This document shows positions 3,189 to 36,244 of a stretch of DNA of 36,244 nucleotides, one piece after another. The DNA is from Thermococcus sp. Lineage in GTDB: Archaea > Methanobacteriota_B > Thermococci > Thermococcales > Thermococcaceae. The first letter of the stretch is position 1. The number at the start of each line of letters is the position of its first letter. The DNA lies in the NCBI RefSeq assembly GCF_015521605.1, contig NZ_WANV01000021.1, positions 1 to 36,244 of the forward strand, in the 5' to 3' direction. The translations under genes and the position numbers were made by a program. Below the pieces are notes generated by a model. It was given only the letters and a program-made list of their open reading frames with translations, searched no databases and had not been told where the DNA came from.

Positions 3189-3266
3189 TGGCGGGCCGGG
3201 GGGGATTCGAACCCCCGACCACGGGATTAAGAGTCCCGCGCTCTAACCATGCTGAGCTACCGGCCC
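3189..3266 (-). tRNA. tRNA-Lys(CUU) with encoded CCA
   Basis: Minus-strand cloverleaf: acceptor GGGCCGG/CCGGCCC, D arm GCTC/GAGC, anticodon stem CGGGA/TCCCG with loop CTCTTAA (anticodon CTT at 3231-3229), T arm CGGGGG...TTCGAAT, discriminator G and an encoded CCA at 3191-3189. No intron. Confidence 0.96.
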
Positions 3267-22489: not shown

Positions 22490-23332
22490 ATGCGTGCGTT
22501 CATATCCCTCGACCTTGAGGGCCTGCCGTACATAGTCAGCCGGCAGCACCTGTTCGTCAAGGGCGCCCTGTACCCGGAGGCAAGGAAGATAGCGACGGAG
22601 ATAGTGAAGGTCACGGCCGAGGCGCTGCACGAAAACGGTTTTGACGAGATCATCGTAGCCGACAGCCACGGGCCGATGGTCAACATCCTTCCGGAGGAGA
22701 TGCCCGAGTACGTCGAGCTGGTCAGGGGCTTTCCGAGACCGCTCAGCATGGTGGCCTTTGCAAAGGGGAGCGACGCAGCGCTCTTCCTCGGATACCACGC
22801 CAAGGCAGGAACGGACAGAGCGACCTTCGACCACACGTACAGCGGGGCGAGCGTGGACAGGCTTGAAATCAACGGCGTCGAGGTGAGCGAGTTTCTGCTC
22901 AACGCCTACCTCCTGGGGAGCTGGGGAATTCCCGCGATTCTTGTCGGTGGCGATAAGAGATTGATAGAAACGGACGTCAAAGCCTTCACCCCCTGGGTCG
23001 TCGGCGTCCCCTTCAAAGAGTCCCCCTCGCGCTACGCCGCCAAGAGCCCAGGGATGGGCAGGATAAAAACGATGCTGAGGGACGGCGTTGCCGAGGCCGT
23101 CGAAAGGCTGAGGAGGGGAGAGGCAAAGCCGCTCGTGACGAGGAAACACGTTCACGTTAAGGTCCGCTTCCTCAGAAGCGACATGGCGGACACGGCTGAA
23201 CTGCTGCCTTTCGTGAGGCGCGTGGATGGAAAAACCGTAGAGTTCGAGGCCAGAAACCTTGAGGAAGCCTACAAGGTTTTCGAGCTGCTCACCTTAGCTG
23301 CAGCGGGAGTGAACGCCATAGTCACAAGGTAA
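22490..23332 (+). CDS. M55-family metallopeptidase (D-aminopeptidase DppA-like)
   Basis: 280 residues. The Asp-Leu-Glu-Gly motif at residues 8-11, ADSHGPM, LGYHAKAG and FDHTYSG match the metal-site regions of M55 peptidases such as Bacillus DppA. Such enzymes are zinc-dependent aminopeptidases that can act on D-amino-acid peptides; the substrate here is unknown. The ATG at 22490 follows GGTGATG; in-frame GTG and ATG codons up to nine bases upstream overlap the site. A candidate H/ACA RNA lies just after the stop on the other strand. Confidence 0.87.
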   Translation: MRAFISLDLEGLPYIVSRQHLFVKGALYPEARKIATEIVKVTAEALHENGFDEIIVADSHGPMVNILPEEMPEYVELVRGFPRPLSMVAFAKGSDAALFLGYHAKAGTDRATFDHTYSGASVDRLEINGVEVSEFLLNAYLLGSWGIPAILVGGDKRLIETDVKAFTPWVVGVPFKESPSRYAAKSPGMGRIKTMLRDGVAEAVERLRRGEAKPLVTRKHVHVKVRFLRSDMADTAELLPFVRRVDGKTVEFEARNLEEAYKVFELLTLAAAGVNAIVTR

Positions 23333-23339
23333 CAGGAAG

Positions 23340-23410
23340 TGTGCCCCCGGGGAGCGAAGGGGAATCACGGCTCGCCGAGGCGCTCATCCCCCGCGGTTTC
23401 CCGGGGGCAC
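23340..23410 (-). ncRNA. Candidate H/ACA guide sRNA between convergent genes
   Basis: On the minus strand the lower stem is GCCCCCGGG/CCCGGGGGC, 9 perfect pairs, followed directly by ACA (23342-23340). Above it is an internal loop (AAACCGCG on the 5' side and TTCGCTC on the 3' side), then an upper stem GGGGA/TCCCC. Next comes a kink-turn-like element in which UGA (23386-23384) faces GAU (23366-23364), giving a U-U pair and two sheared G-A pairs, and an apical hairpin. The distance from the upper stem base to ACA is 16 nt, within the 14-16 nt rule for pseudouridine guides. The outer stem could also act as a terminator for the convergent genes. CTTAAG near 23433 is a possible promoter. The predicted target would read GAGCGAA-UN-CGCGGUUU; I cannot place it. 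Confidence 0.62.
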
Positions 23411-23433
23411 TTTAATTTCCACAGAACCCGGCC

Positions 23434-25809
23434 TTAAGCTTTGTCCTCGTCCTCAACGTAGGGTGCCGTTATCACCTTTCTTATCTCCCTCGCCTTCTTT
23501 TTGCCTATCCCCTCAACTTCCTGGAGCTCCTCCTCCGTGGCGGTGAAAACGCGCTCAACGTTTCCGAAGTGCCGGAGGAGCCTCTTCGCGAGTGTGGACG
23601 AGACGTAGGGGAGGCCCTCAACGATGAGCCTCTGTCTCTCGGCGAGGGTCAAAGCCTTCTTCTCGCTCCTGAGGCGAACTTCCTTCTTCCTCTCCTCCTG
23701 CTCGCGCTTCGCCAAGAGGTAAATGAACTGGGCGGTCTCTTCCGTTCCAGACGAGAACAGTATCGGTACGCTCCAGTCGATGGTCACCGCCGCTATTGCT
23801 CCCCTGATAGCGTTTGGGTGAACGTTCCTTATGCCGTAAAGCTCGCCCTCTATGATTATCACCGACTTTTCGTAGGCTTTCCTTAATCGCTCCACCTGGT
23901 CGAAGAGCCTGCCGTCGATGATGGACTGTATGAAGTCGTTGGCGCTCTTCCTCTCTATCCCGACCTCCTCGCTCACAACGTAGTCGGCAACATCGAGGGT
24001 TCTGACCTCGATCTCCGCCCCCAGCTCCTTCAGGTGCTTTGGAACGCCGCTCCTGAGCTCGCGACTGTCGACGTAAACGACTATACCCTTGGGCTTCCTC
24101 ACGAAGACCGGCTTTATCGGGAGCTTTTCGTAGACCCCCTCTCCGGGAGGCGCGGGCTTTTCGGTCTTTTCCACCTTCTTCTCAACCTTCCCGGGCTTTT
24201 CCTTCGGTTTCAGGAACTCATCGAGGGACGTTACCCTTCCCTTTGAGGGCATCTCAACACGCTCCGCTGTCCTTTCTCTTATTTTACCCCTCCCCGGATG
24301 AGCCTTCTCAAGCTCCCGGGCGAGCTTTCTTATGGCATCAAACATCCCCTTCTCCTTACGCTTTGAGCTCCAGTAGTAGGCCTCATCGCGGGTTCCTTTG
24401 GCCATCAGGATGACGACCCTTCCCGGCCTGTGCCTCCCGGTTCGTCCGCGCCTCTGGATGCTCCTTATTGCGGAGGGCACCGGCTCGTAAAATACGACGA
24501 GGTCGACCTCGGGCACGTCGAGACCTTCCTCACCCACGCTCGTCGCGACCAAAACGTTGAACTCGCCGCGCGAGAACCTCTCAAGGGCTTCCTTCTGCTC
24601 CCTCTGGCTCATGCCCCTGTCGTTGCTCCTGCTCGCCTGACCGATGAAGCGCTCGGCCGTTATTCCCTCCCCTCGGAGAACCTCAACGATTTTCCTCCCG
24701 GTGTCCCGGTAGTTCGTGAAGACTATAATTTTTGAGTTCGGCTTTTTCTTCAGCTGTCCCTTAACCAGCTTTAGCATGCTCTCCATCTTCGGGTGGTCGA
24801 GGCCAAGCTCCTTCGCCTGGACGAGGAGGTATATAACCTTCCTCATGCGGGGGTCTTCCATTAGCTGCCTGCTCGACTTCGTCCTCTTGTCCTCGCGGAG
24901 CTTCTTGAGGTAGGCCCTCAGCGCGGTTAGCCCCTGGGTTTCGAGCAGCTCTATCGCGTGCTGGAGCTTCACGGCCTTCGCCTGGTACATCCTGAGCCGG
25001 CCGAGCTCGTAGTTGCCCCTCGCGACCTCCTGGTTTATCTTTGAACCGGCCTGGAGAACCTCCCTCTTCGATATATCCGGCGAGTAAGTGGAGACAAGCT
25101 TGAACTGAGCGAGGGGTTTGAGGCTCTCCTTGAGCATCTCCCTCAAAAGTTTCCGCACCTCCTTGTAGATGCCGGGGAGTTCGACCTTCACCCACTCAAA
25201 GCTCATTCTCTGCACGTATGGCCTGACGTCGGGAGAGCTCTCGGTCCTTATCTCGATGTGCTCTATCCCGAGGTTCCTGATTATCTCCCGTATCCTCTCC
25301 TCGTCGCTTCCCGGGGATGCAGTGAGGCCGAGGACGAGCGGGTGCCTGGCAGTTCTTAGGTACTCCCTGGCGATGAATACGTAGGAGTAGTTGCCAACCG
25401 CCCTATGGGCCTCGTCAAAAACGAGAAGGACAACGTCCTCCAGGGAGATTTTCCCCGTAAGGATGTCGTTTTCAACGGTTTGGGGCGTGGCGGTTACTAT
25501 CGTGCTTCTTTCCCACAGCTCGGCCCTTTGTTTGGGTGAGAGCTCGCCCGTGAGGACGTTGATTCTCTCCGGGGGAAGGTCGAAGAGCCGCCTAAAGCTC
25601 TCGGCGTGCTGGAGCGCAAGGGGCTTCGTAGGGGCAAGCATGAGAACCCTGCCGCCGTACTTTGAGAGCCTGTAATCGGCTATAAGCATGGCTATAAGCG
25701 TCTTTCCAAGGCCCGTTGGCAGGACGACGAGGCAGTTGGTGTCCTTACAGCGGGCGTAGATTACCTCCTGATAAACGCGGGGCTCGATTAGATCGCGGCG
25801 AAGGTACAT
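23434..25809 (-). CDS. hef: Hef: archaeal XPF/FANCM-type helicase-nuclease
   Basis: 791 residues in three parts. The SF2 helicase half has LPTGLGKT (31-38), DEAH, LTASPG and motif VI RRGRTGRHRPG. A Lys/Pro-rich linker at about 525-570 follows. The XPF nuclease domain contains Asp581 in YVDSRE and GIERKSANDF (ERK starting at 619), then a tandem helix-hairpin-helix region near 730-785. Hef unwinds and cuts stalled replication forks and works with PCNA and other repair proteins. All catalytic motifs are intact. It shares a palindromic TATA box with the divergent gene at 25859, and the start would lie at the transcription start. Confidence 0.96.
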   Translation of the reverse strand: MYLRRDLIEPRVYQEVIYARCKDTNCLVVLPTGLGKTLIAMLIADYRLSKYGGRVLMLAPTKPLALQHAESFRRLFDLPPERINVLTGELSPKQRAELWERSTIVTATPQTVENDILTGKISLEDVVLLVFDEAHRAVGNYSYVFIAREYLRTARHPLVLGLTASPGSDEERIREIIRNLGIEHIEIRTESSPDVRPYVQRMSFEWVKVELPGIYKEVRKLLREMLKESLKPLAQFKLVSTYSPDISKREVLQAGSKINQEVARGNYELGRLRMYQAKAVKLQHAIELLETQGLTALRAYLKKLREDKRTKSSRQLMEDPRMRKVIYLLVQAKELGLDHPKMESMLKLVKGQLKKKPNSKIIVFTNYRDTGRKIVEVLRGEGITAERFIGQASRSNDRGMSQREQKEALERFSRGEFNVLVATSVGEEGLDVPEVDLVVFYEPVPSAIRSIQRRGRTGRHRPGRVVILMAKGTRDEAYYWSSKRKEKGMFDAIRKLARELEKAHPGRGKIRERTAERVEMPSKGRVTSLDEFLKPKEKPGKVEKKVEKTEKPAPPGEGVYEKLPIKPVFVRKPKGIVVYVDSRELRSGVPKHLKELGAEIEVRTLDVADYVVSEEVGIERKSANDFIQSIIDGRLFDQVERLRKAYEKSVIIIEGELYGIRNVHPNAIRGAIAAVTIDWSVPILFSSGTEETAQFIYLLAKREQEERKKEVRLRSEKKALTLAERQRLIVEGLPYVSSTLAKRLLRHFGNVERVFTATEEELQEVEGIGKKKAREIRKVITAPYVEDEDKA

Positions 25810-34627: not shown

Positions 34628-36106
34628 GACAACGCAACCATCGAGCACGAGGTCTGGATCGCCGGCTTTCAATTCTCCTAGAGTCTTATTGCAACCCAGC
34701 ATACGCCCGTCATCAGTCTTAACTTTAAGACTTTCAATTCTCCTAGAGTCTTATTGCAACCGCCACAGTCACACTCGAAATCGAATTAGAACAATCCTTT
34801 CAATTCTCCTAGAGTCTTATTGCAACAACAAGCCGAATTGGAAACTCCAGATAAAGAATGCTAACTTTCAATTCTCCTAGAGTCTTATTGCAACGTTCCT
34901 CAAGCTACAATCAAGCTGACGGACATCAACGTCTTTCAATTCTCCTAGAGTCTTATTGCAACGTACGGGAGGCCGCTATAGAGGCTGCCAGGTTTCTGCT
35001 TTCAATTCTCCTAGAGTCTTATTGCAACCCGCTGGTTCATGAGGTATAAAACCGCCGTTTACCGGCTTTCAATTCTCCTAGAGTCTTATTGCAACTACCG
35101 TCGCCACAGCCGCTACTCGGCAGTGACAGAGCTTTCAATTCTCCTAGAGTCTTATTGCAACCTCATAGTGCCGGAGAGCCATGTCGAGGTACTTTGTCTC
35201 TTTCAATTCTCCTAGAGTCTTATTGCAACGAGGCTGGGGTAGGGTTTGGCTGGAGCGGTCGCGGTCCTTTCAATTCTCCTAGAGTCTTATTGCAACAGCT
35301 GAGGGCCCCGGCAAGAGTCAGGCACCAAGCCCTCTTTCAATTCTCCTAGAGTCTTATTGCAACCACGGCGAATATGTTGATGATGAAGAGGAAGATTGCA
35401 CTTTCAATTCTCCTAGAGTCTTATTGCAACGCCCGAGGAGCTTGAGGACATCGAGGCTTATGAGAAGCTTTCAATTCTCCTAGAGTCTTATTGCAACCTA
35501 CCTTATCGTTGATGATGTAGAGCTTTGTGTAATCATCTTTCAATTCTCCTAGAGTCTTATTGCAACGCGGCCTCGCAGACATAACAATACCTGCAAACTA
35601 TCTTTCAATTCTCCTAGAGTCTTATTGCAACAACCTTGTCCGGAGGCGGTTGCTATGAAGCTTGACATCTTTCAATTCTCCTAGAGTCTTATTGCAACTC
35701 AGGAACCAGCACCCGTTCACCGCTCCCGTGAGGGGTGGGGCTTTCAATTCTCCTAGAGTCTTATTGCAACCCGGCTAAGGATTTGAAGCCCGGCCACCCG
35801 TATGAATCTTTCAATTCTCCTAGAGTCTTATTGCAACGGTGGTGGTGAGATACTTCTACTCAACGCCGTTTCAAATCTTTCAATTCTCCTAGAGTCTTAT
35901 TGCAACCGCCCACCCTCCAGGACGGAAGGGTAACCTTAAACGGCTTTCAATTCTCCTAGAGTCTTATTGCAACTACGCCTGGGAAGACTCCTACCGACGA
36001 TGAGTTGAACTTTCAATTCTCCTAGAGTCTTATTGCAACCGGGAGCTCCGGAAGTTGGGTAGGTTCGAGGCTTATACTTTCAATTCTCCTAGAGTCTTAT
36101 TGCAAC

Positions 36107-36214
36107 TTGACTTCTTCTACATTGTGAACCTCGGTAGGGAGTTCTCTTTCAATTCTCCTAGAGTCTTATTGCAACTTGACTTCTTCTACATTGTGAACCT
36201 CGGTAGGGAGTTCT
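36107..36214. repeat. Duplicated spacer at the leader side
   Basis: The 39-nt spacers at 36107-36145 and 36176-36214 are identical. Both begin TTGACTTCTTCTACATTG and are separated by a normal repeat. Confidence 0.95.
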
Positions 36215-36244
36215 CTTTCAATTCTCCTAGAGTCTTATTGCAAC

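Follow-up and report, generated by a model that had tools for sequence, protein, structure and literature searches.

The minus strand of positions 23340 to 23408 of the window (the whole 36,244-nucleotide stretch of Thermococcus DNA that was analyzed) almost certainly encodes the orthologue of the archaeal box H/ACA sRNA Pab160, which guides the pseudouridylation of a single U in 16S rRNA (Escherichia coli position 950). The element is an already known RNA with the standard mechanism of guided pseudouridylation. An Rfam search at the gathering threshold assigned the segment to RF02796 (Pab160) with 92.7 bits, nearly twice the gathering score of 47.4. The match spans the entire model (1 to 68 of 68), and its covariance-model E value is 1.3e-15 with the whole window searched. 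The original prediction, made from the letters of the DNA, was that an H/ACA guide RNA is encoded on the minus strand, and it proposed a covariance-model search as a check; that search bears out both the class of RNA and the strand, since the plus strand of the locus reaches merely 26.5 bits, below the RF02796 gathering score. RF02796 is matched once in the 2.03-Mb assembly, and no second copy was found there.

Pa160/Pab160 and its Pyrococcus furiosus homologue, Pf9, are treated as established H/ACA guides in two papers (PMC4652768; PMC3726423). Seven H/ACA RNAs have been verified in Thermococcus kodakarensis (PMC4247193), and seven transcribed regions of Pyrococcus abyssi are its H/ACA genes (PMC3124441); the excerpts of both reports leave this RNA unnamed, and that of PMC6138745 contains nothing on it. 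Compared with P. abyssi Pab160 (RF02796) and with Pf9, the RNA in the window is alike in model length, stems, pocket letters, kink-turn, and ACA, and it differs from the Pab160 model only by substitutions in stems and loop and by one additional base in the apical loop. Elsewhere in the window, the minus strand carries a tRNA gene (3192 to 3266; Rfam search) and a CRISPR array (34666 to 36244) with 24 matches to Rfam CRISPR-DR6, which reaches the contig end.

Architecture of the hairpin

Read 5' to 3' on the minus strand, the RNA has the order GCCCCCGGG-AAACCG-CGGGGGAUGA-(apical)-UGAUUCCCCUU-CGCUC-CCCGGGGGC-ACA and folds into one hairpin that terminates in ACA on the 3' side. Its minimum free energy is -46.9 kcal/mol (z = -3.67), and none of 200 shuffled sequences folds as low. 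The 5' arm of the lower stem (GCCCCCGGG, 23400 to 23408) pairs with the 3' arm (CCCGGGGGC, 23343 to 23351, placed by the aligned relatives and covariation), giving the nine base pairs directly followed by the ACA box (23340 to 23342) that had been read from the sequence originally. Inside the lower stem lie the 5' guide, AAACCG (23394 to 23399), which pairs with CGGUUU of 16S rRNA, and the 3' guide, CGCUC (23352 to 23356), which pairs with GAGCG.

By our own count on the alignment, the upper (GA) stem has ten layers (C·U, G·U, four G-C, A-U, U·U, G·A, and A·G). Its 5' strand (23384 to 23393) consists of C, GGGGG, A, U, and the kink-turn G and A, and its 3' strand (23357 to 23366) consists of the kink-turn GA of an invariant UGA followed by UU, CCCC, and UU. 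The apical stem and loop (23367 to 23383) include the U of the UGA motif. The kink-turn claimed at the outset, UGA with an opposite GA, is present and is conserved in these 59 distinct sequences.

In archaeal box H/ACA RNAs, 14 to 16 nt separate the pocket edge of the upper stem from the ACA. The 16 nt that had been given for this distance is correct if the stem ends at GGGG/CCCC; if the G·U and C·U layers are added to the stem, the distance is 14 nt. A ten-layer upper stem has the length described for productive guides, and the RNA shares with the "10/5/9" archaeal H/ACA fold (PMC4652768) the ten upper layers, the five 3' guide bases, and the nine lower pairs. The 5' guide has six bases, as in Pf9 (subfamily 65), whereas that of Pa160 has five (PMC4652768). 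An RNAalifold structure that closes the pocket by two G-C pairs between CG and CG was rejected because pairing with the target requires the four letters concerned, which are invariant.

Target in 16S rRNA

A two-sided guide pocket had been predicted, and the pocket is present, but both of its sides had been extended inward by two nucleotides too many, and for that reason its target was missed. Once the C·U, G·U, and U·U layers and the two kink-turn G·A layers are counted as part of the upper stem, the guides become AAACCG and CGCUC, and the predicted target is GAGCG-U-G-CGGUUU in 16S rRNA. Of the target first proposed, GAGCGAA-UN-CGCGGUUU, the outer GAGCG and CGGUUU were exact, and only the AA before and the CG after UN were superfluous.

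Because the assembly to which the window belongs covers its 16S rRNA gene only as far as about model position 705 (positions 4 to 496 and 517 to 705 of 1478), the target site was read instead in eight relatives with complete operons, with oriented 16S and 23S rRNAs and fixed guides. No 23S rRNA match was obtained in the window's own genome, and two of the ten relatives queried gave neither a 16S nor a 23S match. The GAGCG-U-G-CGGUUU site (with CGGUUC in one genome, G030) ranks first in each of the nine 16S copies of the eight genomes. The guide of the window forms 11 of 11 Watson-Crick pairs with it in eight copies and 10 of 11 in one, and the best 23S site in these relatives offers 7 to 8 of 11 pairs. 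Among 3,000 permutations of the eleven guide letters, the best result was 10 pairs (23 times), and none reached 11. When each genome's own guide was used, all eleven pairs formed in five copies and ten in four, the outermost pair always being the miss. In E. coli K-12 rrsH, the target U has the number 950; this supersedes a numbering based on an isolate 16S rRNA annotated with 1554 bases, which gave 959 when counted from the 5' end and 947 when counted from the 3' end. The target of Pf9 is presumably 16S U910.

Conservation, covariation, and other explanations

After exclusion of one of the 86 RF02796 matches (in G070), which is cut by a contig end, 85 full-length matches were counted; they comprise 59 distinct sequences, which were aligned. 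Free variation of the ACA, the pocket, or the kink-turn among relatives would have spoken against a guide RNA, and the comparison found all three to be conserved. Both ACA and CGCUC are present in 85 of 85 full-length matches, the distance from the first base of CGCUC to ACA being 14 nt in 83 and 15 nt in 2. The 5' guide reads AAACCG in 72 matches, CAACCG in 12, and UGACCG in 1. In the kink-turn, all 59 distinct sequences agree at U, G, and A on the 3' strand and at A on the 5' strand; the G of the 5' strand is conserved in at least 90%.

The 18 named pairs are paired in 91.3% of alignment cells (84.7% in shuffles), show changes on both sides at 9 of the 18 (4.9 in shuffles), and have a covariation score of 0.205 (0.087 in shuffles). 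None of 500 shuffles reaches the alignment in any of five measures, and all six slid controls are lower. In the lower stem, where 93.4% of cells are paired, 5 of 9 pairs have changed on both sides in relatives, and the same holds for 4 of the 7 pairs counted in the upper stem; in the apical stem, only the outer G-C and C-G were counted, and these do not vary in the 59 sequences, while the length of the loop does. The lower stem shows gaps or misfits at several pairs of the alignment, which we read as alignment shifts because in some genera its arms are displaced by a single base. Column pair 16/59, the innermost upper-stem layer, forms a standard pair in 2 of the 59 sequences and is unpaired in 57. 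By eye, most sequences have C·U there, seven rows from other genera have U·C, and A-U and G·U occur once each, so that both sides change together.

The hairpin lies in a convergent gap, as had been stated: a dppA-type gene for an M55 peptidase ends at 23332 on the plus strand, and a gene for a Hef-type helicase/nuclease (hef) ends at 23434 on the minus strand. A strong, nearly symmetrical hairpin in such a gap, 8 bases from one gene end and 26 from the other, could suggest that the element does no more than terminate transcription of the two genes or stabilize the 3' ends of their mRNAs. However, a terminator requires neither invariant pocket letters nor an ACA or a kink-turn, all of which are conserved here; the pocket matches 16S rRNA at 11 of 11 positions; and the hairpin is also retained where it is placed or oriented differently with respect to dppA and hef. 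As the whole story, this reading is refuted, its probability being very small, although the element may have a second role as an mRNA 3' end. It is just as improbable that the locus is a degenerate or orphan H/ACA copy or that it acts mainly on a tRNA, an mRNA, or 23S rRNA: other targets have been predicted for Pa160, namely, 23S L1318 (reported to be unmodified) and leuS mRNA (PMC4652768), but the score and the guides are those of intact members, and the scan of 16S and 23S rRNAs placed the 16S site above all 23S sites in each of the eight genomes.

Promoter-like sequences and orientation of the gene

Upstream of the Pab160 gene, a BRE/TATA-like sequence, AAAGCTTAAG (23433 to 23442, minus strand), overlaps the hef stop codon (23434 to 23436) and may serve as the promoter of the guide gene. 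Across the 86 Pab160 loci, an A-run at -34 to -31, T/A at -28 to -26, and an A at -10 stand out, and a TTTAA/CTTAA-like word starts between -32 and -25 in 79 of them. To judge from the letters, these conserved words look like an archaeal BRE/TATA and start region; gene ends may be the source of part of their conservation.

The guide gene and the promoter-like box, which in the window fall within 23332 to 23460, occur in either orientation between convergent dppA and hef. Of the 86 loci, 42 have dppA upstream of the guide on its own strand and 18 have hef there; in 7 loci only a convergent hef is close, and 19 were left unassigned. At loci with dppA and hef both nearby, the two genes point toward the gap in each arrangement, which means that it is the guide that is inverted relative to its neighbors. 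A tree built from 41 DppA proteins requires four changes in the orientation of the guide, three of which are forced by well-supported branches (the mean for shuffled orientations is 11.3); the tree of 39 Hef ends has poor resolution. It is a minor surprise that the guide gene has been turned round several times relative to the convergent dppA and hef. We tentatively suggest, as a reading with somewhat less than even chances, that the guide and the promoter-like box form a cassette of about 100 bases that was flipped repeatedly at its site between dppA and hef; the long inverted repeat within the cassette may have favored this, and function would have been kept because the cassette brings its own promoter. 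Excision of the guide followed by reinsertion is kept as an alternative to inversion because the lengths of the gap differ between the two orientations of the guide.

Distribution among genomes

Pab160 is present in 85 of the 115 genomes of the class (86 matches) and in 72 of the 84 genomes of good quality, and every positive genome belongs to the window's own family. One genome, G088, has two matches on different contigs (L029 and L103); with a listed contamination of 6%, it may be a mixture. In a DNA pattern scan of named genomes, which may omit records of the window's own genome, 14 stretches were found, all titled Thermococcus, Thermococcaceae, or Thermococcales. Among 14 control genomes, Methanocaldococcus jannaschii was the only positive.

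The remaining 30 genomes of the class gave no Pab160 match, and a second search of 15 of them with looser filters and E values up to 1 recovered none (0 of 15). Two genomes of the same genus that are about 99% complete, G056 and G075, are without Pab160 in this looser search, and the RNA is therefore not indispensable. G056 has no dppA match either. In G075, where no Pab160 was found anywhere in the genome, dppA is broken (L170, G075:C35), and no relic was seen downstream of it with short motifs and by eye.

Protein machinery and proposed mechanism

The assembly of the window encodes Nop10, Gar1, the DKCLD domain of Cbf5, and two L7Ae-family proteins, so that genes for all four kinds of protein are present. 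In the mechanism that we infer for this organism, from transcription through assembly with the proteins to the modification itself, the minus-strand transcript would fold into one hairpin, Cbf5 with Nop10 and Gar1 would grip the lower stem and the ACA box, and L7Ae would bind the kink-turn. The open pocket would then pair through CGCUC and AAACCG with GAGCG-U-G-CGGUUU of 16S rRNA and present the U between the two guides to Cbf5 for conversion to pseudouridine.

The candidate is thereby removed from the list of unknowns, and the target that the original prediction left unplaced now has a name, a single U of 16S rRNA. A pocket drawn two bases too deep was enough to hide a perfect target; in archaeal upper stems, C·U, G·U, and G·A layers need to be counted.
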